Assembly (NCBI GenBank): GCA_900541975.1
Contig: UQLR01000007.1
Location: 43,765 to 107,764 of the forward strand
Direction: 5' to 3'
DNA from: an uncultured Oscillospiraceae bacterium
Lineage (GTDB): Bacteria > Bacillota > Clostridia > Oscillospirales > Acutalibacteraceae
Length of the DNA: 64,000 nucleotides
Shown here: positions 3,354 to 17,166 of the stretch, piece after piece
Numbering within the stretch: position 1 is the first letter of the stretch
How the letters are laid out: every line of letters starts with the position of its first letter
Notes under the pieces: generated by a model
Told to the model about the DNA's origin: nothing
The model's database searches: none
The model's input: only the letters and a program-made list of their open reading frames with translations
Translations under genes and position numbers: made by a program

Positions 3354-4076
3354 TTACTGTATTTGCCGGATCAAGTCTCTGATTACCTCGCCGGCGATCA
3401 TCAGCCCGGCAACAGAAGGAACAAAGGCTATACTGCCCGGCGTCTGTCTGCGCGCAGAAAGTTCGTTTTCTGTTTCGTTTTGAAAAAGGGGCGTTTTTGG
3501 GTGCTCTTTGGAATACAAAACTTTCAGATGTGCAATTCCTGCTTTTTTCAGTTCGCGGCGCATCACGCGTGCAAGCGGGCATACAGATGTTTTGGAAAGA
3601 TCTGTAATTTCAAACATAAATGGATCCAGTTTGTTGCCCGTGCCCATACAGCTGATAATTGGAATACCCAGCTGTTTTGCCTTTTTGATCAGTAGAAGTT
3701 TGGAAGAAACGGTGTCGATTGCATCGACAATATAATCACAGGCAGAGAGATCTATGGAATCTGCATTTTCCGCGGTGTAAAATACGGGGAAGGCGGAAAC
3801 GGCAGCATCCGGATTGATAGATAGGATGCGTTCCCGCATCACATCCACCTTTGTACAGCCGATGGTTTTGCAGGTTGCAATCAGCTGGCGGTTCAGGTTG
3901 CTTGGGGCGATGGTATCGTTGTCCACCAAAAGCAGCGCGCCCACGCCGCTTCTTGCAAGCGCCTCGCAGGTATAAGAACCCACGCCGCCAATCCCAAACA
4001 CAGCTACACGCGCTTTTTTAAGTTTGGCGATTCCCGCCTGTCCAAGCAGCATTTCTGTTCTGGTAAGGTCCAGCAA
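3354..4076 (-). CDS. tcdA: tRNA threonylcarbamoyladenosine dehydratase
   Basis: 240-aa E1-like enzyme (ThiF/MoeB/HesA superfamily) that uses ATP to cyclise t6A37 of ANN-decoding tRNAs to ct6A. It has the nucleotide-binding GIGGVGSYT (residues 29-37), the D-N-D and NLNRQ arginine segment, and the DAIDTVSSK motif typical of TcdA/YgdL rather than MoeB. The start is a TTG at 4076 placed 10 bases after AGGAGG. It works downstream of TsaD, also encoded in this window (30445). This housekeeping E1-like gene should not be confused with the true E1 of the island at 11802. Confidence 0.92.
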   Translation of the reverse strand: MLDLTRTEMLLGQAGIAKLKKARVAVFGIGGVGSYTCEALARSGVGALLLVDNDTIAPSNLNRQLIATCKTIGCTKVDVMRERILSINPDAAVSAFPVFYTAENADSIDLSACDYIVDAIDTVSSKLLLIKKAKQLGIPIISCMGTGNKLDPFMFEITDLSKTSVCPLARVMRRELKKAGIAHLKVLYSKEHPKTPLFQNETENELSARRQTPGSIAFVPSVAGLMIAGEVIRDLIRQIQ

Positions 4077-4735: not shown

Positions 4736-5090
4736 GGGGATGTAAAGGTTTCGACGGGGATTGTAAGCCCTGGTAAGCGAGTAGCGGTGCGGAACCGCTT
4801 GAAAATCCGCATTTTATAAATGAAACAACAACAATAAAGTTGCTTACGCTGCTGCTTAATTAGCAGCGCGCGTTCTTACCGGAAGCACCGCGGTCCGGCA
4901 AAGAGCGTCGATTAAGCGGTGAACGTGAACCGGAAAGTAGTCTTGTATCCGGTCATGCACAAAAGACTACCAATGCAAAAAGCCTGCCTGTGGGCGTTTT
5001 GCGGAGGGAATTTAAAAACACAGGCTACACTCGTAGAAAGCCTTGGTAAGCGATTTTCGGACAGGGGTTCGATTCCCCTCATCTCCACCA
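4736..5090 (+). ncRNA. ssrA: Transfer-messenger RNA (tmRNA)
   Basis: One-piece tmRNA of 355 nt. The 5' GGGGATG pairs with 3' CATCTCC ahead of the encoded ACCA, and the T-arm GGGTTCGATTCCC is intact. The tag frame reads NNNNKVAYAAA then TAA (4824-4859); the codon before it in frame is TGA, so the resume codon seems to be AAC at 4824 rather than GCN. The tag ends in a small hydrophobic tail as required for ClpXP recognition. SmpB is encoded immediately upstream. The 3' end forms one boundary of the genomic island. Confidence 0.95.
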
Positions 5091-5130
5091 CGTCGCCGCG
5101 GATGTCATATCGTTCGCGGCGACGTTTTTT
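5083..5130. repeat. Left boundary repeat of the island (attL-like)
   Basis: 48 bp beginning with the tmRNA 3' end CTCCACCA and running through the terminator hairpin. It is 46/48 identical to 16784-16831, differing at 5091 (C versus T) and 5103 (T versus C). The repeats bracket the island in direct orientation. Confidence 0.75.
5091..5130 (+). terminator. tmRNA terminator
   Basis: CGTCGCCGCG pairs with CGCGGCGACG and is followed by six T. The same hairpin is duplicated at the right end of the island (16792-16832). Confidence 0.9.
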
Positions 5131-5432: not shown

Positions 5433-5778
5433 ATGGAAAGATCATTATTTGAGCAAATGGGCGGGACATATACTCAGGTTGGAGATTATATGCTACCGGA
5501 TCTCATACTCTCCGAACAAGAGCATAAGTCTATCGGAATATGGGGACAACGACACGCAAATTATCTTAAACAGCACCACAAAGTTTTGTATATGAATCTA
5601 CTTACAAGCGGAAAGTTAAACAGTTATCTTGCTGACATTGATGAACGGGCAGAAAATATGTTTTCAAGGCATTACCGAGCAGCTAAAGGTAAACGACCAA
5701 ATGATATGGGTAGGTAGAATGAATGCTGTTCGCAACGCCGCCACAGAAATCGTGAATAAGAAGCTAATTTACATATGA
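5433..5778 (+). pseudogene. TnpV-family transposon protein, frameshifted
   Basis: The N-terminal frame (LFEQMGGTYTQVGDY, SIGIWGQRHANYLKQHH, LLTSGKLNSYLADID) matches the small TnpV proteins carried by clostridial mobile elements. After MFS at about 5670 the family continuation GITEQLKVNDQMIWVGRMN appears in a different frame and runs through VNKKLIYI to a stop at 5776-5778. The expected ten or so residues between them are missing, so a short out-of-frame deletion inactivated the gene. It has a good RBS (AGGAGG). It is a relic of the element that brought in the island. Confidence 0.8.
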
Positions 5779-5919: not shown

Positions 5920-7062
5920 TTATTTAGTCAATGGGATTAAGACAGTTTGCCCGACATAAATCTGATCAGGATTGCTGATTCCATTTATGGCAAGAATAAT
6001 TCCTTTGTTGGAATTATAGTCCAAACCGTACTCATCACAAATTTTTGACAGGCTATCGCCAGATTCAACAGTGTAGGTAATAAATTCAATCTTATTACTG
6101 TTACCTGTTTCACCATCGTTCTTTTGGCTTTCCACAAACTCCTTCAGCTCAGTCAATACAGCATCTTGATTTTGAAGTGTTAATTCATGATTTTCAATCA
6201 TTTCAATCAGGTCAGCAGCAGTAGTCTGACCACTACTGTCAAGAATACCGTTCACCAACTGTTCTTGAAGCTTGGAAATTGAATCAGCTTGGTTATCGAG
6301 TAACTGCTTCTGATTATCAATTTCTTCAAGCATCTCATCTTGCATTTGTAGTTGTTGCTCATATTTCTTATTCAGGGAAGCAGTAAAGAAGGATAAAAAT
6401 ATAGTTGCAAGGCACAGTACAGCAACGAGAGAGGTTGTTAATATTGGCGGTTTGCGAGGAATATCATCTTTTTTGACGACTTTGGTTTGTTCAATCTTAA
6501 TTGGCTTGCCAACATCATCGTAAATATAGTATCCCTTTAGTTTTTCAATTTTGCCATTTTTCCATTGGAAAAATCCACGAATGTTTTGAATGGGATCAAT
6601 AACATAAGCCACTTGAAACGGCATATTAAAGAAATTTTCCTGAATGAAAAGATCATAATTAGACAGAAAAACACCATAGTTGGGATGAGTATGTTGCCAT
6701 CCAACTATTTTTTGGTTAGGATACAACCTTTCATGCTCAGCATGAACATAATCCCATGTTTCGTGAGTGAATGTTAAAGTTGAAGCAGAAGCATCCGTAT
6801 ACTTTGCTTCTACATAACTTGATATAATAACATTCATTTTTCCCATTTCCTGAGCATAATCACCAATGATGATACTTCCAAGTTCCTTGCTAGTATCGGA
6901 TGATGCCAGTTTTTCAAGAGCTTTATAAACATCTTGCTTGATATAAACCTTTACATCATCACTTTCAATTTCACCAAAAGTCAAGAAATTCATCGGGAGC
7001 TGAACGCTCTGTGTTTGTTCTACATCGTTGTCCTGGATTTCAATTTCAAAATCTTTGTCCAC
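5920..7062 (-). CDS. Membrane-anchored JAMM isopeptidase with C-terminal LysM
   Basis: 380-aa protein. Residues 35-180 are a JAB/JAMM (MPN+) zinc isopeptidase: catalytic Glu60 in KELGSIIIG and the His-x-His-x10-Asp signature HTHPNYGVFLSNYD (His124, His126, Ser134, Asp137). A single membrane segment lies at about 208-228, a predicted coiled coil at 230-315, and a LysM peptidoglycan-binding domain at 329-377 (YTVESGDSLSKI to GQTVLIP). The topology implied is catalytic domain inside and LysM outside. It starts at GTG 7062 after AAGGAAGG. It is the last gene of the ubiquitin-like operon and is paralogous to the JAMM at 7950. The probable role is removing or maturing the UBL at the membrane. Confidence 0.88.
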   Translation of the reverse strand: MDKDFEIEIQDNDVEQTQSVQLPMNFLTFGEIESDDVKVYIKQDVYKALEKLASSDTSKELGSIIIGDYAQEMGKMNVIISSYVEAKYTDASASTLTFTHETWDYVHAEHERLYPNQKIVGWQHTHPNYGVFLSNYDLFIQENFFNMPFQVAYVIDPIQNIRGFFQWKNGKIEKLKGYYIYDDVGKPIKIEQTKVVKKDDIPRKPPILTTSLVAVLCLATIFLSFFTASLNKKYEQQLQMQDEMLEEIDNQKQLLDNQADSISKLQEQLVNGILDSSGQTTAADLIEMIENHELTLQNQDAVLTELKEFVESQKNDGETGNSNKIEFITYTVESGDSLSKICDEYGLDYNSNKGIILAINGISNPDQIYVGQTVLIPLTK

Positions 7063-7075
7063 CTTTTACCTTCCT

Positions 7076-7957
7076 TTACAAAGAGATTATTAAAATAAGA
7101 ACTGAATATCCTATAATGGTCAAAATGGTAGCAGTGGAATTTGCCCCGCCATTTTGAGCAATAAATTGAGAACGATAAGGTTCTGTCATTGACTTAATCT
7201 GATTCGCTTTACTCTCAAGATAAGTCATGTAGATGTAATTTGCAAAAATACCCAATACAATATACCCGGCAAGTGTCAGCAATGATAGGAAGGCAGAGCC
7301 AATCAGAAAAATTACGAAAGCTACTGCAAGGACAGCTGCACCATACCCATACATCTTCCGGTAAATCAACCAATATGGAGTTACCAAAAAAGCACACCAG
7401 TTCCAAGATGTTTTCTTATTTTGGGCTTTCATCTCTTGAAATTTAGGATAGTAATACTCAGATTTTGTTCCAATAAGTTGAACCACATCTGCATCTACTG
7501 TTGTGGTTGAAGAATACACATACGAATTATTGAATGCTGTTTGTTGCTGATAACCATTGTATTGCGGATTCGTATATCTGTAAGGATTAGTATTGTTAGG
7601 ATCAGCAGGCGTAAATGTATGCTTAACTTCAGGCTGAGAAATTCCTGTTACCAATCGTGCTCCACACCCGCTACAAAATAATGCTGTATTATCATTTTTT
7701 CTTCTGCATCGGGTACAGAAAATATTTTGATCAGGTTTAATATCATCTTCATATTCCAAAGTGCTGGCTGTAACAGTAGTTGCCGATCCATCGGCAGCTT
7801 TGATAGAACCCATGCACCCGAAAGTGGTGCATCCTTGATTTTCAATCCAACAGTCTTTATGGTGTGGCATGTCACATTCACTGCATACAACAATATCGTC
7901 TGTTTCTTGGAAAGCTGTTTTGCAGAATGGACAAATTTTGCCTACATAATCATTCAC
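7076..7957 (-). CDS. Prok-RING / zinc-ribbon / DUF2628 membrane protein
   Basis: 293-aa protein. Residues 9-48 form a prokaryotic RING finger (family 1) with Cys9, Cys12, Cys25, Cys28, His32/33, Cys36, Cys43 and Cys48 (motif PHHKDCW then CTTFGC). A zinc ribbon follows near residues 80-100 (FCTRCRRKN, FCSGCGARL). The C-terminal part, about 180-260, is a DUF2628-type module with three hydrophobic helices and a preceding WNWCAFLVTPYWLIYRKMY motif. It starts at GTG 7957, overlapping the end of the upstream JAMM gene by 8 bases after AAGGAGG, so it is translationally coupled. In this operon it is a plausible E3-like adaptor; that role is inference. Confidence 0.85.
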   Translation of the reverse strand: MNDYVGKICPFCKTAFQETDDIVVCSECDMPHHKDCWIENQGCTTFGCMGSIKAADGSATTVTASTLEYEDDIKPDQNIFCTRCRRKNDNTALFCSGCGARLVTGISQPEVKHTFTPADPNNTNPYRYTNPQYNGYQQQTAFNNSYVYSSTTTVDADVVQLIGTKSEYYYPKFQEMKAQNKKTSWNWCAFLVTPYWLIYRKMYGYGAAVLAVAFVIFLIGSAFLSLLTLAGYIVLGIFANYIYMTYLESKANQIKSMTEPYRSQFIAQNGGANSTATILTIIGYSVLILIISL

Positions 7958-8969
7958 TCACAGTTCCTCCTTGTTCTTTTGCACTCTTGGTCGATGAAAC
8001 ACTATTAGTAGTTTTTTCGACCGGCTCGGAGGTGTCGGTACTTTCCGTCCCTTTGTCTGAGCCTTCCGTTGTTGATTCATCTTCAATTTCTTCGGTGGAA
8101 GGCAGAACAGTTTCGTATTCATTTGAAGGAATGTCAGTTTCTTCACCTTTCAGCATCTTATTTAAGTTTTCAATCTCTATAGCCTGCGATGCAAGTTGTT
8201 GCTGCATATAAGCTAAGCTTTGATTGGCACTTGAAACAATTGTTTTCTGTTGCTCTTGAAGCTGTTCCAATTTGTTATTTGTTGAAATTTGAGAAAAAAT
8301 AAGGAATACAACTGCAACGGAAAGCAATGCAAGAATAATGTTTTTGATACTAAGCAGCGATTTTTCGGGAATAGATTCGGCTTCTTCTTTCTCTGTTTCA
8401 ACCGTAATCTTAACGCCGGTTTTATCGTAGATGTAGAATCCTTTGCATCTTTCAATATTTCCATTTATCCAGAAATAGAAGCCCTCAATGTTCTGAATAG
8501 GATCTACAACATAGGCGATTTGATAATCTTCACTAAAAAAGTTTTGCTGAATAAACTTGTCATATTCGGAGAGAAAAATACCAAAGTCCGGGTGAGTATG
8601 TATCCAACCTACTATTTTCTTACCACTATGTTTTTTCTCTATTTCCTTGTGTACATAATCCCATGTTTCGTGGGTGAATTTCAATGTGGTTGGAGTTCCT
8701 TCGGCATACTTGGCTTCAACAAATCCACTTATCACAATATTGGTCTTGCCGAATTCGTCAATGACACAGCCTATGAGCATACCGCCACTTTCATTGGTAG
8801 TCTTATTTTGAGTGAACTTATGGATTTCCTTATACACTTGCTGGGAAATATAGATATTTTTATTTTCTTCGACTCGATCTCCCATAGGCAAAATATTCTG
8901 CGGCAATATATTATCGGGAAGCGATGCTTGACTTTCTTTGTTTACTTTTTTTCTTGCCTTTTTAGCCAC
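7950..8969 (-). CDS. Membrane-anchored JAMM isopeptidase
   Basis: 339-aa paralogue of the JAMM protein at 5920, aligned residue for residue through the catalytic domain: Glu60 in NESGGMLIG and HTHPDFGIFLSEYD with His124, His126, Ser134, Asp137. A membrane helix lies at about 208-227 and a coiled coil after it. The tail (residues 280-339) is rich in Ser, Thr and Glu with no LysM, so it should lie outside as a flexible stalk. It starts at GTG 8969, only 6 bases after the stop of the protease gene. It overlaps the next gene. The two JAMM genes look like an in-operon duplication whose extracytoplasmic parts diverged. Confidence 0.87.
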   Translation of the reverse strand: MAKKARKKVNKESQASLPDNILPQNILPMGDRVEENKNIYISQQVYKEIHKFTQNKTTNESGGMLIGCVIDEFGKTNIVISGFVEAKYAEGTPTTLKFTHETWDYVHKEIEKKHSGKKIVGWIHTHPDFGIFLSEYDKFIQQNFFSEDYQIAYVVDPIQNIEGFYFWINGNIERCKGFYIYDKTGVKITVETEKEEAESIPEKSLLSIKNIILALLSVAVVFLIFSQISTNNKLEQLQEQQKTIVSSANQSLAYMQQQLASQAIEIENLNKMLKGEETDIPSNEYETVLPSTEEIEDESTTEGSDKGTESTDTSEPVEKTTNSVSSTKSAKEQGGTVSE

Positions 8970-8975
8970 CGGTTT

Positions 8976-9878
8976 TCACTCCCATATATCAATGTCAAAG
9001 TCAGTTCGTTCTTTAGGATCATATTTTAAGGTTAAGTTCTTCTTTTTCTGATATATTAACAAAACAAGCAAAACCACATTACCAATCAGCGAAACACCCG
9101 CAATCACAAAAGCTACATAAGTGATTACCGATATGCTTTCGCTTTCAGTAGAAGGTTTATCATTTTGAGTTTCGTCATTACTATTAGACTGCGTGGGCTC
9201 AATTGTATCTCCCGTAGAAGGGAGTACTTTATCTACCACATTTCCGGAACTATCAAGCTCAATACCCAGTTCATTAAGATAGTCACAAATTACATTTTCT
9301 GGAATTGCAAGACCAATGCCTTCGCTGTCTGACATTTTAAGCGTATTCATGCCCAACACTTGTCCACTATCATTCAATAGGGGACCTCCGCTATTTCCTT
9401 CATTTATAGCGGCATCAATTTGGATATATGTATTATAGCCGACTATGCGTTCTTTTGCGGAGATTACTCCTTTTGTTAAGGTGTATGCCATGCTTTTTGG
9501 CGCTCCTATTGCATATATGTCATCACCTGTATTCATTACTGAAAGATCAGCGATTGGGAGATAAGAAAATTCTGCTCCAGTAATAACTAATACAGCTATG
9601 TCTTGGAATTCATTTATTCCAAGAATAGTTGCTTGGTATTCCTCTCCGCCGTAAGATTTCACATAAACATTTCGTTCATTGGAAATAACATGGGCGTTTG
9701 TCACGATACAATTCTTTCCTACAGCAAACCCACTTCCAAGGGAATTTTCAGAATAAACAACAAATACCGATTCATATACTTCCTCAGCGTTAAATCCAAT
9801 GGCATAGACTGAGAGTGTGGAGGCGAATAATATCGCCACCACAATCATCAAAGAGAGTAACACTTTGATTGGCTTCAC
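8976..9878 (-). CDS. Secreted membrane-anchored trypsin-like serine protease
   Basis: 300 aa. Signal peptide or anchor at residues 1-26 (ending VYA), then an HtrA/DegP-type chymotrypsin-fold protease domain, about 30-215. The triad is visible: His63 in VTNAHV, Asp93 in FQDIAVL, Ser163 in GNSGGPLL. No PDZ domain is present. A Ser/Thr/Asn-rich linker leads to a C-terminal membrane helix at about 245-272 and a short basic cytosolic tail. It starts at GTG 9878 after AGGAGG. It is the only enzyme of the operon predicted to act outside the membrane, and may cleave extracytoplasmic parts of partner proteins. That link is inferred from co-transcription. Confidence 0.87.
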   Translation of the reverse strand: MKPIKVLLSLMIVVAILFASTLSVYAIGFNAEEVYESVFVVYSENSLGSGFAVGKNCIVTNAHVISNERNVYVKSYGGEEYQATILGINEFQDIAVLVITGAEFSYLPIADLSVMNTGDDIYAIGAPKSMAYTLTKGVISAKERIVGYNTYIQIDAAINEGNSGGPLLNDSGQVLGMNTLKMSDSEGIGLAIPENVICDYLNELGIELDSSGNVVDKVLPSTGDTIEPTQSNSNDETQNDKPSTESESISVITYVAFVIAGVSLIGNVVLLVLLIYQKKKNLTLKYDPKERTDFDIDIWE

Positions 9879-9901
9879 GATATTACTCGCCTCCTAATCT
9901 C

Positions 9902-11788
9902 TTACTTCGTATTAAACACTAACACAGAGTTACCGATAGCGATTGTATCGCCTTGGCGAAGAACGTGCCGTGCTGTTTTCTGACCATTTACAATAGTCCC
10001 CATAGGTGTACCACAATCTGTCAAAACATACTTACTGCCTTCTAACTTAATATCGCAGTGATGAGGTCCGACAAGCTTGTCTTTGAACAGAACGATAGTA
10101 TTCTTGCCATTATTGCCAATGCTTGTTGTTCCTGCAAAGACAAGATATTCCTTGCCTTCAAATTCACCACGAATAACTTTGAGCCATGCAGCTTTTGCAA
10201 ACTGTTCAAGCAACCCAACACCAACACCAATCAGGATACCCATGATAACGATAGCAACACCTCTTGCAACTATATCGTTTGGAATGATGTCAACCACATA
10301 GTTAAACAGGAAGCCGCCGATAAAGGCACCTACCAAACTGCCAAGGGCACAGAATAAGATACGTTTCTTTTCCGGCTTAATAAGACCAACAGCAATACCA
10401 ATGCCAAGTCCCATTATTGCCCACCCAAGGCCACGAACAAATGCTGCTGTTAAGTCAGCGGGATCATCCGTAAGCATTTCGGTATACATCCATTGTGCTA
10501 AATAACCGCTAACGAATCCAATGGCGAGAGAAACACCTGCGCCTATCAAAGCGTATTTTATGGCTTTCTCCTTCGAGCCATAGAACACGCCCTCGCCAAT
10601 GCCAAGGAACAGCCCAATAAACAATGCAATGATTGCCGACCAAAGCGCAGTACTGATCCTTGTTACTGTTGCTAAAGCATCACCGAGTTTATCTTCGTTC
10701 TCATTGTATTCATCTACATAGACATCATAGAGAGCATCATCCGCTTTATTGCTAAGTTGCAGATAATCTTCTATGTATCCTTCGACCGCATCTGAAATTT
10801 CACCACTTGATATCCATTTAGACAAACCATCCTCATCTTCAGGATCTACATTATTTTGAGAGCACCACTTCTTAAATTCAGCATCTACCTTATCAAGCTC
10901 ATTGTTGGCATCAGCAGTATATTCATAGTACTCGACGAGTTCTCCGTGGCCACTTAACCGTGCAGCGGTAATTTCACCGGTAATGTTATTATCAGTTAAT
11001 TCTGATACACCAAAACCAATAAATGCGCCAATCAACGCCCACAGTAAACCTTTGACAAAAACAGTTTTGAAGTTAATCTTATTTCCTTTTACTGTTCCTC
11101 CATGAGATACCGTCTGCATACGCTGTGCGGTTGGAACAAATTCAATTCCTGCAAGTTCTTCTGCTGTAATCTCGAAGTCGTTCTCGTCATCTTTTTCAGT
11201 TGTAGCAACGGCGACTGATATCTGTGCAGAGCCTTCATTTTCATGAACAGCAAAAGACGGCTCCGCTACTTTTTGCCCCTCGTCATCAAACAGATCGATA
11301 TCCACAGTATCTTTTGCAGAAGTATAATCGGCAATATGCAATTCAACATTACCAACCGGAAACAGATGTTTATTGTCCATTGCCCATTGTGCCGCATCTG
11401 CTGAAAGAGGGCTATATGAATTCCATGATTTATACTGTATCATATCCCCGATATTGATGATAATATCGCTTAGTGATTCGCCAGCCCCCCAAATATCTCC
11501 GATACAGATTTGTTCATCTCGGAAATTAGGATGCCAAATGGGTGTAAGAATTTTGCAAATCGGTTTATAACGTGGATAATCAGCATGAAGTGTAATTTCC
11601 ACCTCATGCCGACTGAGTGTTTCGATTCTGCCATCTGGCAGAAGATATATACCGTTCACAAAATATGTAACATGATATTTCTCCGGCGGCGCATCGCCAA
11701 TCGGAGTAACAATTATGTTTTTGTGACCGGTAAAGTCTTTTTTGACTTGCTCGTAGTCAGATGCAAGTCGTCTCATTCTCGCGGTCAT
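9902..11788 (-). CDS. E2-like ubiquitin-conjugating domain fused to membrane segments and FHA-like domain
   Basis: 628 aa from ATG 11788, which follows AAAGGAG; the longer frame (from 11845) would overlap the E1 gene. Residues 1-140 are a UBC-fold E2: YPRYKP, the HPN motif (86-88) and active-site Cys95 in QICIGD, eight residues after HPN as in canonical E2s. The middle third holds about eight Gly-rich membrane helices in two blocks separated by an acidic, helical soluble segment. The last 85 residues are FHA-like (SIGNNG, PHHCDI, VNGQK), but the usual phosphothreonine-contacting Arg and Ser-Arg are replaced. It should therefore conjugate the UBL at the inner membrane face. The fusion is unusual. 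Confidence 0.85.
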   Translation of the reverse strand: MTARMRRLASDYEQVKKDFTGHKNIIVTPIGDAPPEKYHVTYFVNGIYLLPDGRIETLSRHEVEITLHADYPRYKPICKILTPIWHPNFRDEQICIGDIWGAGESLSDIIINIGDMIQYKSWNSYSPLSADAAQWAMDNKHLFPVGNVELHIADYTSAKDTVDIDLFDDEGQKVAEPSFAVHENEGSAQISVAVATTEKDDENDFEITAEELAGIEFVPTAQRMQTVSHGGTVKGNKINFKTVFVKGLLWALIGAFIGFGVSELTDNNITGEITAARLSGHGELVEYYEYTADANNELDKVDAEFKKWCSQNNVDPEDEDGLSKWISSGEISDAVEGYIEDYLQLSNKADDALYDVYVDEYNENEDKLGDALATVTRISTALWSAIIALFIGLFLGIGEGVFYGSKEKAIKYALIGAGVSLAIGFVSGYLAQWMYTEMLTDDPADLTAAFVRGLGWAIMGLGIGIAVGLIKPEKKRILFCALGSLVGAFIGGFLFNYVVDIIPNDIVARGVAIVIMGILIGVGVGLLEQFAKAAWLKVIRGEFEGKEYLVFAGTTSIGNNGKNTIVLFKDKLVGPHHCDIKLEGSKYVLTDCGTPMGTIVNGQKTARHVLRQGDTIAIGNSVLVFNTK

Positions 11789-11801
11789 ACGCTTGTCTCC
11801 T

Positions 11802-12986
11802 TTATAGATTTTCAAACACTTCGGCTTCGTCTTCCGAGAACTCATAATAAGTTGTATTCATTCCAATCCGTCCACCAATGATGTGAAGTAGCGGGATACC
11901 AATTTCATATGGTGTCTTATCCAGGAAATCTTCATCACCCTTAATGGAGTGGAGAGAATCAAAGACCATTTGCTTGCCACACTTGGGGCAAGTCAACATT
12001 TCGCCTTTCAACTTGTGAACAGGCATATAGAGGTCTTTATGCTCACCACATGAACAGTTAGCTGTAGTCGCTATATCTCGGTCAAAGTCAATTACTGCTT
12101 TTTCTCCGAGATCAGAGCGAACTTCCGAAAGCAAATCTCTCAAACGAATCGTTCTAACCGACCAGGATTTCGGTATAATTGTTTCATATGTATCATGGCT
12201 CATGCAGTCTTCTTTGCGCTGATACTCTACAACATATGAATCATGCGTAAGACCATTGAAAACAAAACCTTTTCCTGCCAGAGTAGGAAGCCCTCGATCA
12301 GAATGGAGAAGCTTTAACATCTCTTGGACTTGAATTCCTGCAATCACCGATGAAGATGTTGGGGTGGTTGGGATTTTGCCTTCTGCCATTTGTTCATGTG
12401 TCAGAAGCGCACAAGACTTTCTCTTGTTAATGAGCATCCAATCAGTTTCCGTCATAGTACACTCATAGCAAGCCCCTTGCCCTGGCACGAATACTCTTGC
12501 AAAACCGTTAAGAGCCTCAATAGCGCCATCAATCCATGGCTTATTAACCTTATAGCAGGACTGATTTATTGAAAGTCTGGCCTCTCGGTTGTCAAGCCCG
12601 CCAAGGACAACATCCATGCGCCGAAACACCCCAAGTCCTACATCATCAATGATATTGCTGACGAAAGCTTTTGCCTTTACATCTGGGTTGATCTCCATGG
12701 AACGCTCTGCGGCAATCTCAGCCTTGTATCTTCCCACGTCTTTGGCTCTAAACAGTATAGATCGGGTTAGATTGGTGCTTTCGATCGCATCCATATCAAA
12801 AACAAGAATTCTACCAATGCCGAGGAGCGTAAGGTTTTTGATTAGTTCATTGCCGATTGCGCCAGCTCCGACAACCATAATGATGGCATTTTTCAAGCGT
12901 TCCTGATCCCACCATGGTATCAGGCGAAGGCGGCTGTAACGGTCTTCCTCAAAATCTGAAGCCTGTAAATCAACGTTATTTTCCAT
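11802..12986 (-). CDS. E1-like ubiquitin-activating enzyme
   Basis: 394-aa ThiF-fold enzyme expected to adenylate the UBL C terminus and load it as a thioester. GAGAIG (40-45) is the ATP loop; NLTRS (72-76) carries the arginine finger; LDNREAR (131-137) follows. GACYECT (172-177) and a distant Cys carry the crossover-loop signature of eukaryotic UBA3/UBA2, and Cys192 in KSCALL aligns with their catalytic Cys, followed by TTPTSSSVIAGIQVQE. The C-terminal part (300-394) contains a zinc ribbon (CSC, CPKC). The ATG at 12986 shares one base with the UBL stop (TAATG), implying coupling. It is clearly different from housekeeping TcdA at 3354. Confidence 0.92.
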   Translation of the reverse strand: MENNVDLQASDFEEDRYSRLRLIPWWDQERLKNAIIMVVGAGAIGNELIKNLTLLGIGRILVFDMDAIESTNLTRSILFRAKDVGRYKAEIAAERSMEINPDVKAKAFVSNIIDDVGLGVFRRMDVVLGGLDNREARLSINQSCYKVNKPWIDGAIEALNGFARVFVPGQGACYECTMTETDWMLINKRKSCALLTHEQMAEGKIPTTPTSSSVIAGIQVQEMLKLLHSDRGLPTLAGKGFVFNGLTHDSYVVEYQRKEDCMSHDTYETIIPKSWSVRTIRLRDLLSEVRSDLGEKAVIDFDRDIATTANCSCGEHKDLYMPVHKLKGEMLTCPKCGKQMVFDSLHSIKGDEDFLDKTPYEIGIPLLHIIGGRIGMNTTYYEFSEDEAEVFENL

Positions 12987-13264
12987 TAGAAGACACCGCC
13001 TGCCGTAATTTCCGGCTGAAGGCGAAGTACATCACCATCTTTAATTCCTGCTTCTGAAAGCGTTTGAGCTTCGAGAAGTTGTCTTCCGGTAACTTTATGT
13101 ATAAATTTGTAGCTAATCGGATTTCCGTCAGGTCCAACGGAAGGCAGCTTAATTTTTTCAACAAGCTTCACCATAATGATGCCGCATTTAATATCGTCCG
13201 GCAAACCAACCTTTTGTTCTTTGTTGCCAGTGGCATCGACGATAACTACATTAACCTTTGCCAT
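12986..13264 (-). CDS. YukD-type ubiquitin-like modifier protein
   Basis: 92-aa beta-grasp protein of the YukD/EsaB family: VNVVIVDATGNKEQKVGLPD, then SYKFIHKVTGRQLLEAQTL and GIKDGDVLRLQP. Unlike YukD of type VII secretion systems it ends in TAGG-VF, a di-glycine (89-90) followed by two extra residues. In ubiquitin-like systems such a tail must be trimmed to expose GG before E1 activation, and the JAMM proteases of the same operon are candidates. It starts at ATG 13264 after AAAGGAGG. The stop overlaps the E1 start by one base. It is the modifier of the system. Confidence 0.9.
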   Translation of the reverse strand: MAKVNVVIVDATGNKEQKVGLPDDIKCGIIMVKLVEKIKLPSVGPDGNPISYKFIHKVTGRQLLEAQTLSEAGIKDGDVLRLQPEITAGGVF

Positions 13265-13280
13265 TGTATTATCCTCCTTT

Positions 13281-14243
13281 TTAATCTACTAAATTATCCA
13301 AAGCACGATAGCAAGACAAGAATTCATCGGTTGTTTCGTTATTGTCATCACTATAAGAGTTGTAGTTTCCTGAAGGAGCCGTAGCGAGGCTGTAAAAATC
13401 AGTGTATACATTATAGAGATCTTTGACTGCATCGCAGATTTCTTCTATATCATCAATATCTTCTTCTAACAAACCATCTGGAACAATTTTAATTTCGGAA
13501 TACAACGATTTCATTTGAGAATCATAAGTTTCTGCCTGCGAAATCTCAGCAGACTTATCAACAAGTGCATATAAAATTGCAGCATTGATATCTAACCCGT
13601 ATTTGTCCTCCCAAATATTTTCATACCAATAAGTCTGTACCGTGTCGGCAATATCTTCAAGGTTTGTACCCGCTTTATAAGAAAGTGAAAGAAATTTTTC
13701 AACATTGGCTAAATAGTCTTTTTTGACCTCTTCCGCCTTTTTACTACCCATAATCCCTGAGATTATTACTCCAAGTCCAACACAGACTACCAGAACCACC
13801 CCAATAATAATCGGCAATACTTTAGATTTCTTCTTTTTCTTTTCTACACTTGCATTGAACTGACTAATTGCAGAAGCCGCTGTAGTATCCACAACAACCC
13901 CCATTTTCTGACCGCACTTAGGGCAGAATTCCTGTCCTTCTTGCAGTTCTGCGCCGCACTTCCCACAGATGTTTTTTTTCACACCATCCTTTGGTGTTCC
14001 ACACTTAGGACAAAAAGCTTGTCCATCTCCAAGTGGTGTGCCACAATTTGGGCACACATCCGTCGGGTTGGTTCCTTGTGCCTCATAATGTTGCTCTGAG
14101 CATCCAAAGGTTGTGCAGCCCTTGTTTTCTTCCCAACATGCTTCATGATGCGGAAGTCCGCATGCCGGACAGACTTTGATTGCATCTTCTTCCTTGATTT
14201 CTGTTTTACAGAACGGGCAGATCTTACCGATGTAGTTTTCCAT
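13281..14243 (-). CDS. Prok-RING / double zinc-ribbon membrane protein
   Basis: 320 aa from ATG 14243, which is preceded by GAGGAGG. Residues 9-48 are a prokaryotic RING finger nearly identical in spacing to the one at 7076 (CPFCK, CPACGLPHHEACW, GCTTFGC). Two zinc ribbons follow (Cys64/67/78/81 and Cys93/96/107/110). A lysine-rich stretch precedes one membrane helix (143-165), and about 150 residues of helical, acidic sequence should lie outside. It is the first cargo gene of the operon, directly upstream of the UBL (gap 16 bp). Cytosolic RING plus external domain suggests a receptor-like E3 candidate; this is inference. Confidence 0.85.
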   Translation of the reverse strand: MENYIGKICPFCKTEIKEEDAIKVCPACGLPHHEACWEENKGCTTFGCSEQHYEAQGTNPTDVCPNCGTPLGDGQAFCPKCGTPKDGVKKNICGKCGAELQEGQEFCPKCGQKMGVVVDTTAASAISQFNASVEKKKKKSKVLPIIIGVVLVVCVGLGVIISGIMGSKKAEEVKKDYLANVEKFLSLSYKAGTNLEDIADTVQTYWYENIWEDKYGLDINAAILYALVDKSAEISQAETYDSQMKSLYSEIKIVPDGLLEEDIDDIEEICDAVKDLYNVYTDFYSLATAPSGNYNSYSDDNNETTDEFLSCYRALDNLVD

Positions 14244-14310
14244 GATGTTCCTCCTCAAAATAGACTTTTTCAATTTTTTAGCCGCCTTTCGGTAGCAAAT
14301 TAACAACATT

Positions 14311-14770
14311 TCAGTTCGGCAGACACATTTTACACGGCGCATATTCGCCACTTTCAAATTCTTTTACCGTTATTCTTTGCACATTTGTTTTATCCTTGAT
14401 AAATATACATTCTTCCTTGTGATACTTATTTCCACTTTCCGTCAGGTAGTATTCACCATAATAGCTTTGCTCTTTTTGAATTGCACCCCAAATTAAAACG
14501 CCGCCAATCATTAGCAGACTATTAAAGTCGAAAATACGACTGTCTTTTTGTGTTGATGCATCCTTTTGATTGCTCTATCGCTTTCTCGATTCCTAACGAA
14601 TTTATAAGTTTGGTAATATCCGGGTTGTTAAAAATACTGTTAAACTCTATAAGCGTATAACCTTGCCGGGTTAGAATGTTTCTCAGTGTTTCGAGATTAA
14701 CTGACTTTAAGTTATATTCTGTTAGGAACCTTTTTGCCTTTATTTTGGCATCATTCTGTATCACTTTCAC
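14311..14770 (-). pseudogene. ImmA/IrrE-family metallopeptidase, internal deletion
   Basis: The 5' part (from 14770) encodes the N terminus of an ImmA/IrrE-type peptidase (LRNILTRQGYTLIEFNSIF, then LGIEKAIEQSKG) and stops at 14522-14524 after a frame change. The 3' part, in another frame, has a membrane helix (LLMIGGVLIWGAI) and the C-terminal module SGNKYHKEECIFIK with GEYAPCKMCLP seen at the end of clostridial homologues. The central HExxH protease core is missing. Its partner regulator ends at 14751, overlapping the start by 20 bases, as in ImmR-ImmA pairs of integrative elements. The anti-repressor branch of island control is therefore lost. Confidence 0.7.
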
Positions 14771-15311
14771 TGGCCCTCTTGATAGCTTTTATTGTCTTGG
14801 CAACTTCAGCATCTCTTGCAACTGAAGTTGCCTGGGAAAGACTTAATCCGCCAAACGATTTTATAATCGCTTCGCTTGGCAGTTGGCTACAACGAGCATA
14901 TTCCACCATAATCACAGAACGGATTGATTGAAGAGCCTGCTGATCCAAACTTTCGAGAATTTCCTGAGAGTGCTCGTCCAGAATGGCACGCATCTCAAAA
15001 CTTGAATAATTCAGTCCGTCATTGAATCTCGTAACAAGATCTTTCGGAAAAATTGAAAGCATACGAATCATTTTATGTGTTTTGTGGTTGTAATCAAAGA
15101 ACAGTACAAGAGAAAGATATGTGCTCCATGCCATTTTTCTGCTCTTGTGCTCAACAGCACTATAGGTCTGTCTTGAAATGCCGATAAGATTTGCCAAATC
15201 TTCTTGCGAAATCCCAGCTTGAGTTCTTAATGCGGCTAAATTATTTGTAAGTATCGCAATGTACTTTTCCTTTTCCGTAACTGTCAATGCCCATTTGGAT
15301 TCAGATGTCAT
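14751..15311 (-). CDS. XRE-family transcriptional regulator of the island
   Basis: 186 aa from ATG 15311 (RBS AGGAAAG); a GTG at 15323 is less well placed. A Cro/C1-type helix-turn-helix occupies residues 20-60 (LAALRTQAGISQEDLANLIG, ISRQTYSAVEHKSR). The rest is helical with no recognised domain and may be the dimerisation or effector part. It is encoded first from the operon promoter at 15402-15430 and overlaps the broken immA gene, an arrangement like ImmR/ImmA of ICEBs1. It probably represses its own promoter, which is flanked by an inverted repeat. Confidence 0.85.
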   Translation of the reverse strand: MTSESKWALTVTEKEKYIAILTNNLAALRTQAGISQEDLANLIGISRQTYSAVEHKSRKMAWSTYLSLVLFFDYNHKTHKMIRMLSIFPKDLVTRFNDGLNYSSFEMRAILDEHSQEILESLDQQALQSIRSVIMVEYARCSQLPSEAIIKSFGGLSLSQATSVARDAEVAKTIKAIKRASESDTE

Positions 15312-15376
15312 TGATGCGCCCACTTTCCTATAAACATGTATACAATTTTCATAAAGTATCTTACTTTACGAAAGCA

Positions 15377-15529: not shown

Positions 15530-16790
15530 CGTCAACTATGCCGAGTCGCACAATTACACGGTAGTCGGTGAATATATAGACCGGGCGCAAAGCGGCAAGT
15601 TTGATAACCGTGCCGATTTTCAAAGGATGATCGCAGACAGCGAAAAACACACCTTTGAAGGGGGGCTTGTATACCAGCTTGACCGCTTTGCCCGTAACCG
15701 ATACGACAGTGCGATTTACAAATCAAAGCTGAAGAAAAACGGCGTAAGAGGCCTGTCTGCGAAAGAGAATATTACCGATGATGCTTCGGGCATTCTTATT
15801 GAAGGCGTCCTTGAAAGTATGGCGGAATATTACTCCGTAGAACTTGCACAGAAGATTCATCGAGGTATGTCCATCAATGCCGAAAAGTGTTTGTCAAACG
15901 GCAGTAATTCCGGTCTCGGATTTAAAGTAAACAAAAAGGACCGCACATTCTATGTTGATGAGGACGAAGCGGCTATTGTCCGTGAAATTTACGAGCGATA
16001 TGCCGCAGGTGAAACAAAAGCGGAAATCGTTAAGGACTTGCAGAGAAGGAAGGTGAAAACTTCCCTTGGAAACGAGTTCACATACAACAGTCTCAGCCGC
16101 TTGCTCAAGAACAAACGCGATCTTGGCATATATTTATACAAAGGAGTTGAAACACCCGGCGGAATGCCACTGCATCCTGGATGACGATTTATTCTATCGG
16201 GTACAAGCGCTTATGAACAAGAACAAATCTGCACCTGCCCGGACAAGGGGCGAAAACGAATATCTGTTGACTACAAAGCTTTTCTGCGGCCATTGCAAGG
16301 AAATGATGGTGGGATACGGCGGAACGGGAAAATCCGGCAAGCAGTACCACTGTTATATGTGCAAGAGAGCCCGCAAAAAGAAATGTGACAAGAAGATAGT
16401 CAGTAAGGATTATATCGAAAATCGTGCTATCAGCGAGTGCCTTAAAATGCTGACCGAGCGGTTGAATCAACGGCAGGCGGAAAAAGCAGAATTGGAAACG
16501 CAGCTTGCCATTGAGAACAATAAGAAAATCTGCCTGTCCGAAGCGCAGATTTTAGCCTTTCTGGATTATGTGTGTGAAATGCCGATGGATGACTTTCATA
16601 AGCGCAGAGCGATTATCAATATATTCGTTCATTCCATTTACCTGTATGACGACCACTTCACATTGATTATCAATGCGAGCAAGAAGCCTTTAAGCATTGA
16701 TAATATCCCGCTCAATGATATTGAAGCCGTTTTTGAAGGCAAAAACAGCGAAACGGGGGGGTGTTCATCGTTGATGACACCCGCTCCACC
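15530..16790 (+). pseudogene. Large serine recombinase, N-terminally truncated and frameshifted
   Basis: The frame enters at VNYAESHNYTVVGEYIDRA and continues through YQLDRFARNRYDSAIYK, the recombinase domain and a zinc ribbon (LFCGHCKEMM ... CYMCKRARKKKCD). The N-terminal 40-60 residues with the catalytic serine are absent: a stop lies directly upstream. After VETPGGMP near 16170 an extra base shifts the frame, and LDDDLFYRVQALM resumes in the next frame. The reading runs into the right boundary repeat, its last codons spelling APP over CTCCACCA. It is a dead integrase of the island. Confidence 0.85.
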
Positions 16791-16831
16791 ATGTCGCCGC
16801 GGACGTCATATCGTTCGCGGCGACGTTTTTT
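16784..16831. repeat. Right boundary repeat of the island (attR-like)
   Basis: Same 48 bp as 5083-5130 with two substitutions: a CTCCACCA copy of the tmRNA end followed by the GTCGCCGCGG/CGCGGCGAC hairpin and T run. It coincides with the 3' end of the recombinase remnant. Confidence 0.75.
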
Positions 16832-17166
16832 TATTCCGCGCCGGCTTTTTTGGAAAGGGCATTGGCTTGTTATGCAGGTGTTTTTCTTTCCGAAAATACC
16901 GTACTTACTGCGACTGTTTGCAAACGCACTTGCGGCGTTTCTGCTGCGCTATTTCTTAGGGAGTTCATTTCCTTGTTTGCCTGTGGATATTTTTTGTATA
17001 CGCCTTGCCCGCAAAAGGTTTATTTTATAGAGGTTGGCGTTTATTTGCACCATGATGGTGAATTTCTTAAAGCGGTGTTTTTCTGTGCGTGACAGCTGAC
17101 ACATCACCGGCGAAAAAGCAAGCTCAAAAAGCCTAAAACATATTTTTTTCATTGCCGAAAGAAGAC
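16832..17166. other. Non-coding stretch right of the island
   Basis: About 340 bases on the chromosomal side of the right repeat. Short open frames exist on both strands, but none has an RBS, recognisable motif or sensible composition. I see no gene here. Confidence 0.4.

Follow-up and report, generated by a model that had tools for sequence, protein, structure and literature searches.

Can a bacterium tag membrane proteins with a ubiquitin-like protein (UBL), and what would read such a tag? The question is raised by a nine-gene operon on the minus strand (5920-15323) of a 64,000-nucleotide stretch from an uncultured Oscillospiraceae bacterium (contig UQLR01000007.1), hereafter the window. 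In order, the operon encodes an XRE-type regulator, a RING/zinc-ribbon protein, a YukD-type UBL, an E1, an E2, a trypsin-like protease, a JAMM protein, a RING/DUF2628 protein and a JAMM-LysM protein, with adjoining genes mostly overlapping or at most 25 bases apart. Read at the sequence level, it combines this gene set and its active-site residues with a UBL end that is invariant up to ...PEITAG and variable behind it, and with a motif at fixed positions. This short acidic beta-strand motif (DFDIDIWE-like) is common to the tail of the protease, the E2 after its catalytic domain and the start of some JAMM proteins. It has the hydrophobic core and the acidic residues of a SUMO-interacting motif (SIM), and we consider it likely that it grips the UBL.

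All nine genes named in an initial annotation of this DNA are present in the order given there, each scoring above its Pfam cut-off (Table 1). The catalytic residues, which had been called intact, were located in each enzyme: HPNFRDEQIC in the E2, RKSC in the E1, H/D/GNSGG in the protease, HxHx7Sx2D in the two JAMM proteins and eight ligands in each of the two RINGs. The list was nevertheless one gene short, as a broken M78 peptidase between the XRE and RING genes had been missed. The shared motif, the varying tails and fusions of the UBL and the tmRNA island had likewise been passed over. Upstream of the XRE gene lies a site that matches the sigma-70 consensus perfectly, and the last gene is followed by a 19-pair hairpin; both are consensus matches only, and they fit one transcript. 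For the E2, whose open reading frame (ORF) opens at 11845, the start at 11788 is more likely, since the resulting 628 residues equal the length of its homologue P0001. A stretch of 107 nt recurs in both JAMM genes (6743-6849 versus 8650-8756, 70% identity), and on this ground they likely arose by duplication.

To place the operon among its kin, a UBL profile was searched against a collection holding one genome per species; of 200 relatives the best 80 were kept, with their loci given L numbers. Genes in these 80 loci were labelled only against the proteins of the window, and many loci are truncated by contig ends. The motif was first recognised from a side-by-side reading of three loci (the window, L047 and L052) and was written as the pattern [FILVYMP][DEN][IVL][DESTQ][ILFVW] in acidic surroundings. 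Per 1000 residues, proteases have 2.81 matches, E2s 2.36 and JAMM proteins 1.60, versus 0.22 in 519 flanking proteins. The positions are equally uneven. The motif lies within the last 17 residues of 31 of the 38 complete proteases versus 3/469 complete flanking proteins; of the seven proteases that the pattern missed, six end in a near form and that of L077 is without it. Within the first 30 residues it is found in 30/84 JAMM proteins versus 1/469 complete flanking proteins, and 39 of 53 E2s carry it 35-110 residues past the catalytic Cys, with 0.017 matches expected per E2.

Homologues were also searched in a large protein set (best 120 examined of 794, 742 and 6670 matches), where the motif is present in 118/120 proteases and 116/120 E2s among the best listed. 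Of 11 positions around the motif in these protease tails, 8 have an entropy below 0.3 bit; in the linker that follows the membrane helix (positions -12 to -8), it amounts to 1.5-2.5 bits. When the protease tail was searched for as DNA, in two strict forms, there were 17 matches in 16 of 22 genomes (10/11 and 6/11) and none with reversed controls. All 17 matches are this protease, and the exact tail was found nowhere else in those 22 genomes; because the patterns were built from known tails, only this absence elsewhere is informative.

The second feature concerns the modifier itself. The UBL of the window ends in ...EITAGGVF and had been described as having a C-terminal GG. Comparison with relatives places the conserved end at AG (...EITAG), the second Gly being the first residue of a variable tail. 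PE(I/M)TAG is present in 80/80 UBL copies (79 loci and the window, the UBL of L001 having been left out by gene picking). Behind it, 23 copies stop at the Gly, 50 have 1-12 extra residues and 7 have more than 12; a second Gly follows directly in just 9/80. Among the best 120 UBL homologues listed from the large protein set, all but two (P0129 and P0240, which diverge just before it) have the conserved ...EITAG end; 43 of these 118 end exactly at the Gly, the rest continuing with unrelated residues. With an invariant ITAG and such variation behind it, in tails and in fusions, the UBL resembles a precursor that would be cut after Gly89.

Large fusions start right after the ITAG end in six loci (L024, L031-L034 and L037). 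The fused part is a lipoprotein-like signal with an outer domain in L024 and L032-L034, another such part in L031, and a zinc ribbon with hydrophobic helices in L037. Pfam applied to the fused parts of L024, L031 and L037 recognised the zinc ribbon as the sole domain. The domains fused to the UBL in these six loci may be precursors or captured targets.

As the motif resembles a SIM, the UBL is the first candidate for its binding partner. Two tethered chains were modelled with AlphaFold, in each of which the stop codon between neighbouring genes was read as a residue: the protease tail of L052 joined to its UBL, and the UBL of L076 joined to the N-terminus of the E1. In both models the motif forms a strand (residues 20-22 and 110-111) at which confidence peaks, with block means of 66 and 68; the linkers beside it are largely below 50 and without strand. 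Structural alignment of both models with VIA-align matched ubiquitin folds, with one top row, a talin F0 nuclear magnetic resonance (NMR) model, spanning the motif in its range, and did not reveal the motif's partner strand. The two models lend moderate support to a motif strand placed beside the UBL.

Several points weigh against a motif that grips the UBL. The strand is a DSSP call, and its partner strand is not visible in the model output. Both models were made on motif-bearing chains without a negative control; the first is weak overall (mean predicted local distance difference test (pLDDT) 70.1, predicted template modelling score (pTM) 0.56), and the second used the E1 copy of the motif, a protein in which the motif is hardly enriched (19 versus 13 in shuffles). 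Enrichment is similarly slight in the RING/zinc-ribbon proteins (8 versus 4), and the motif is not general: RING/DUF2628 proteins hold 10 versus 2 in shuffles, in 10/55 proteins, and 54/84 JAMM proteins lack it in their first 30 residues. The regular expression was written after three loci had been seen, and the DNA patterns derive from known tails. The 120 proteases and 120 E2s are close kin of the window's proteins and not independent of descent, and four Ignavibacterial E2s found later match the strict pattern in 1/4 and the core alone in 3/4. Finally, the topology on which the reading leans was assigned by hydropathy alone, and the motif could bind another shared partner.

Hydropathy predicts one helix in each JAMM protein, one in the first RING protein, two in the second and about six in the E2, in agreement with the membrane anchoring that the initial annotation had assigned to these five. 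Membrane helices on Prok-RING_1 RINGs are reportedly noted in the Pfam entry. The protease had been taken for a secreted enzyme. Its profile holds a signal-like stretch (residues 6-24), a borderline one inside the protease domain (94-112) and a C-terminal one (257-275) followed by four Lys/Arg; with the conserved tail behind that last helix, a type I membrane protease is the better reading of the protein. Its predicted orientation places the motif tail in the cytosol and the catalytic domain outside.

Put together, these features suggest tagging at the inner face of the membrane, with the following course of events. A JAMM protein would trim the UBL tail after Gly89. The E1 would adenylate the UBL and pass it via Cys192 to Cys95 of the membrane-anchored E2, and the RINGs would assist in placing it on lysines of target proteins in or near the membrane. 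The motif would dock noncovalently on the UBL by adding a beta strand, so that its copies on the E2, JAMM and protease tail hold the machinery to the UBL and bring the protease to tagged membrane proteins. The docked protease, its catalytic domain predicted outside, would cut the outer part of the tagged proteins. The JAMM proteins would reverse the tag, one of them being tied to the cell wall by LysM. The purpose may be surveillance of membrane proteins or of the envelope, with an island as the vehicle between strains; both envelope surveillance and defence would fit membrane tagging.

We do not hold these steps with equal confidence. The UBL/E1/E2/RING/JAMM tagging cascade taken alone is very probable. 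A cascade at the membrane combined with binding of the UBL by the motif stands at roughly even odds. Recruitment of the protease is the boldest and least supported step, which we advance tentatively and would sooner doubt than assume. In its full form, the proposal is that of a first bacterial modifier with SIM-type readers, having a SUMO-like groove on the UBL, docking motifs on the E2, the JAMM protein and a membrane FHA partner, and a surface protease that reads the tag via its cytosolic tail and cleaves tagged membrane proteins in their outer part; this is conceivable, with the balance of probability somewhat against it. Like eukaryotic SIMs, the motif is short, hydrophobic and acidic and apparently strand-forming, here on the E2, JAMM and protease; it differs from them in being bacterial, alternating (phi-acid-phi-acid-phi) and set at fixed protein ends. 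According to a 2025 review, prokaryotic systems found so far do not share the SIM-binding groove, and such systems might reveal how SUMO and ubiquitin diverged (PMC12687455). With a conserved SIM-like motif at fixed places in several of this operon's proteins, the groove question can be tested directly, using short peptides and an 89-residue protein. If the proposal is true, SIM-type reading is older than eukaryotes or has arisen twice, and the reading of a cytosolic tag by the tail of an outside protease is a new way to act across a membrane.

The alternative that survives best is that the cascade works and the motif docks on another partner (the E1, the UBC domain, the degenerate FHA domain or a zinc ribbon), building one membrane complex. 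The motif sits in the E2 and JAMM, both bound to meet the E1 or the UBL anyway, and the FHA domain may have taken another ligand. FHA domains that read phosphothreonine have a conserved Arg after SxG and the Ser of SxxH. In 152/158 E2s Asn replaces the phosphate-binding Arg (GPHH in 125/158), which makes phosphothreonine reading unlikely, and a role of the domain as phospho-reader was rejected. Three deep loci (L048, L074 and L076) encode a membrane-FHA-like protein separately, as judged by profile label and by eye. The clostridial E2 thus looks like a fusion of an E2 with such a protein. The separate protein carries one strict motif in L076, and acidic hydrophobic stretches were seen by eye in L048 and L074. 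Against another partner, the two tethered models, with only the UBL present, made a strand of the motif and not of the long linkers. We regard docking on a partner other than the UBL as rather unlikely.

Anti-phage defence of the Bil (bacterial ISG15-like) kind, with the UBL attached to phage proteins during infection and the XRE regulator and M78 peptidase switching the operon on after DNA damage, is less probable still, and it is compatible with the membrane mechanism. The operon lies on an island at a tmRNA gene, and relatives pair the XRE regulator with an M78 peptidase, much as in the CapH+CapP pairs that control immune operons after DNA damage (PMC13373217). PADLOC returned only generic E1-E2, JAB, trypsin-domain and HTH matches, none of them for the UBL, the E2 or the RINGs, and NCBIfam gave nothing above cut-off. 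An envelope role is the better match for the LysM-JAMM protein and for a protease with a predicted outside location. Bil operons likewise hold a UBL, E1, E2 and JAMM together; their UBL (BilA) has two domains and their E1 (BilD) an inactive and an active adenylation domain (PMC11354881). In the window, the UBL has 92 residues with one YukD domain and the E1 394 residues with one ThiF domain. The clear difference from Bil claimed by the initial annotation stands. We know of no RING in Bil.

The two remaining candidates, a YukD/EsaB-like assembly factor of type VII secretion that is never conjugated and a ThiS/MoaD-type sulphur carrier whose E1 makes a thiocarboxylate, are both highly improbable and were rejected on account of the E2 with intact HPN..C, the RINGs and an E1 closest to eukaryotic Uba1 (2.7e-33 in the PDB, versus 1.5e-20 for ThiF and 8.4e-18 for MoeB). 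In favour of the sulphur carrier, the E1 is of ThiF type, and there is a known case of a JAB gene next to a UBL of the ThiS/MoaD kind (PMC1779556). As to secretion in particular, E1, E2, RING and JAMM genes recur as neighbours of the UBL in the 80 loci, and the ...ITAG end is invariant, whereas EsaB/YukD proteins are without a Gly-Gly end (PMC11217815). A Pfam scan of the operon and nearby proteins gave no EssC/EccC ATPase or WXG100 protein, a negative confined to the proteins scanned.

The relatives were assigned to Clostridia, Ignavibacteria, Armatimonadetes, Zipacnadia, Acidobacteria and others, some being labelled Synergistaceae or Synergistales and one Roseiflexaceae, with the proviso that these are the best 80 of 200 and that genome bins may hold foreign contigs. 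Outside the clostridial group, the UBLs of these 80 are 60-69% identical to that of the window. Labels for UBL, E1, E2, JAMM and RING occur together in 43/80 loci, 31 of which also have the protease, and an XRE label in 10/80. The active sites recur as well. A strict pattern for the E1 (CYECTM..R(K/R)SC(A/M/S)LL) matched 57/77 proteins, with the Cys present amid small changes in 17 of the other 20; HPN..C was found in 56/67 labelled E2s, HxHx7Sx2D in 85/85 labelled JAMM proteins and the triad pattern in 26 of 39 proteases of at least 200 residues. The eight-ligand pattern is absent from 43/119 RING-labelled proteins, many of which are zinc-ribbon proteins caught by the profile.

Three layouts were observed. 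The clostridial form has XRE, RING, UBL, E1, membrane E2-FHA, protease, JAMM, RING and JAMM-LysM, and the deep form has protease, UBL, E1, JAMMs, a soluble E2 of ~180 residues and RING. The Ignavibacterial form is split, with UBL, E1 and RING at one place and the E2 at a second place in 7/8 genomes; a lack of E2 in Ignavibacteria was accordingly rejected (none was found for the genome of L050). In the four loci examined, a JAMM gene adjoins the Ignavibacterial E2, and LysM was confirmed by Pfam in L085. A tree of E1 sequences unites the 35 copies that accompany a long membrane E2 (that of the window and those of 34 loci) in a 41-member clade with support of 0.94; the other six members have no long E2 by pattern, their contig ending early in some cases. 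Viral carriage was rejected, since none of 37 pattern stretches among viral contigs (IMG/VR) was a relative and E1 matches in two phage records are annotated moeB (33.6% identity over 65%). Among eight plasmid records, only Crinalium epipsammum NC_019754.1 (38831-39970) covers most of the E1 (34.8% over 95%). Two neighbourhoods held further genes: beside the UBL operon of L042 (6062-9325), by eye, Ser/Thr kinase-, von Willebrand A- and PP2C-like phosphatase-looking genes, and upstream of that of L018 (6617-9073), an 818-residue RING protein that matches ANAPC3 (TPR) weakly, at 22.4 bits against a cut-off of 27.2.

Burroughs, Iyer and Aravind reportedly predicted, in 2011, prokaryotic systems with RINGs, YukD-like UBLs, E1, E2 and JAB. 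By that definition, the same families stand side by side here, namely Prok-RING_1, a YukD-like UBL, E1, E2 and JAB. The survey is not known to describe a SIM-like motif, an AG end followed by tails that vary, fusions of the UBL to lipoproteins or the tail of the protease. Further statements are in print: the 2011 RING survey is cited among works predicting prokaryotic UBL conjugation (PMC12687455), a 2006 survey gives UBL/E1/E2/JAB neighbourhoods and regards RING E3s as apparent eukaryotic innovations (PMC1779556), complete operons are noted for some bacteria in a paper of 2017 (PMC5654768) and a 2018 figure legend mentions LysM-associated bacterial JAMMs (PMC6043591). The view of the operon as a clearly new system is weakened by the earlier mention of complete operons and by the 2011 prediction; the gene set is of a kind already predicted in print and not a new kind. 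What this study adds is the motif, the AG end together with the tails and fusions that vary behind it, the tail of the protease and the island. None of these is described in the literature searched, a weak negative as most subscription papers lie outside it.

Among related systems, Bub (bacterial ubiquitination-like) uses serine/oxyester chemistry and a DUF6527 protease. The operon differs in its canonical Cys sites and its JAMMs. No DUF6527 was found among the Pfam matches at E<=1. Bub operons do resemble it in combining a UBL, E1 and E2 with a protease (PMC12687455), and some have upstream HTH and peptidase regulators (PMC13373217). The Foldseek list for the UBL model is headed by the ubiquitin of Caldiarchaeum subterraneum. 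To our knowledge, the system of that archaeon has no membrane E2, HtrA-like protease or LysM-JAMM. It too comprises Ub, E1, E2, RING and JAMM; its own precursor has a C-terminal tail that is cut by a JAMM (PMC5654768 and PMC6043591). There the cut falls after Gly-Gly (PMC6043591), unlike the single Gly after Ala found here. The invariant ...ITAG end broadens the range of possible UBL ends.

Table 1. Features of the operon and its surroundings (window positions; lengths in amino acids (aa); scores from Pfam, with cut-offs where given)
Positions	Strand	Feature	Evidence and details
5083..5130	+	Left direct repeat: 3' end of tmRNA gene and terminator-like hairpin (island end)	48 bp, 96% identical to 16784-16831
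5433..5717	+	TnpV, transposon-encoded protein	PF14198 95.2 bits
5876..5916		Strong hairpin after last operon gene	19 pairs; consensus match only
5920..7062	-	JAMM protease with one hydrophobic helix and LysM, 380 aa	PF01398 (JAB) 30.1 bits (cut-off 22.5), PF01476 (LysM) 44.7 bits; HTHPNYGVFLSNYD; helix 212-230
7027..7059	-	SIM-like motif DKDFEIEIQDN, N-terminus of JAMM-LysM	motif pattern
7076..7957	-	RING and DUF2628 membrane protein, 293 aa	PF14446 (Prok-RING_1) 52.6 bits (cut-off 29.1), PF10947 24.1 bits; helices 209-227, 275-293
7950..8969	-	Second JAMM protease, one hydrophobic helix, 339 aa	PF01398 (JAB) 37.0 bits (cut-off 22.5); HTHPDFGIFLSEYD; helix 211-229
8976..9878	-	HtrA/trypsin-like serine protease, signal-like N-terminus, C-terminal helix, predicted cytosolic tail, 300 aa	PF13365 (Trypsin_2) 98.0 bits
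8979..9008	-	SIM-like motif RTDFDIDIWE, extreme protease C-terminus	motif in 118/120 closest homologues
9902..11788	-	E2: UBC domain (Cys95), about six hydrophobic helices, degenerate FHA, 628 aa	PF00179 (UQ_con) 28.9 bits (cut-off 27), PF00498 (FHA) 47.1 bits; HPNFRDEQICIGD
11282..11314	-	SIM-like motif KDTVDIDLFDD, after E2 UBC domain	motif in 116/120 closest homologues
11802..12986	-	E1: single ThiF adenylation domain, Cys192 catalytic by motif, Cys-rich C-terminal part, 394 aa	PF00899 (ThiF) 184.5 bits; RKSC
12986..13264	-	UBL, YukD family, 92 aa	PF08817 (YukD) 46.3 bits (cut-off 27)
12989..12997	-	Variable tail GVF after conserved PEITAG	comparison with UBL ends of relatives
13281..14243	-	RING, double zinc ribbon and one hydrophobic helix, 320 aa from MENYIG; ORF opens 14357	PF14446 (Prok-RING_1) 48.7 bits (cut-off 29.1); helix 143-161
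14311..14770	-	Broken M78 (ImmA/IrrE) peptidase, HExxH part gone; N-terminal piece 14522-14770, membrane/Cys-His piece 14311-14511	PF06114 match of relatives; DNA alignment
14751..15323	-	XRE-type regulator, 190 aa	PF01381 (HTH_3) 34.1 bits
15402..15430	-	Promoter-like site TTGACA-17-TATAAT	12/12 consensus positions; consensus match only
15627..16959	+	Large serine recombinase, broken in two frames	PF00239/PF07508 and PF13408
16784..16831	+	Right direct repeat (island end)	48 bp, 96% identical to left repeat

A gene for transfer-messenger RNA (tmRNA) lies at 4736-5090, and the 11.7 kb between the direct repeats hold TnpV, the whole operon and the two-frame large serine recombinase. Lying between repeats of the tmRNA end and beside a recombinase, the operon is, on this layout, the cargo of an 11.7-kb tmRNA-site island with a broken recombinase. 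A scan of 35 of the 80 relatives' loci found no tmRNA gene, and tRNAs in 3/35, close by only in L010; the tmRNA insertion site thus looks particular to the window copy. The two short ORFs between the XRE gene and the first RING gene are pieces of one M78 gene. In the relatives L006 and L016 it is intact, encoding 223-228 residues with Peptidase_M78 (PF06114), a hydrophobic helix and a C-terminal Cys/His part. With the peptidase broken, control of the operon may be altered in the window copy. A second ThiF-family gene (3354-4076), presumably TcdA-like and not related to the operon, is located beyond the island.

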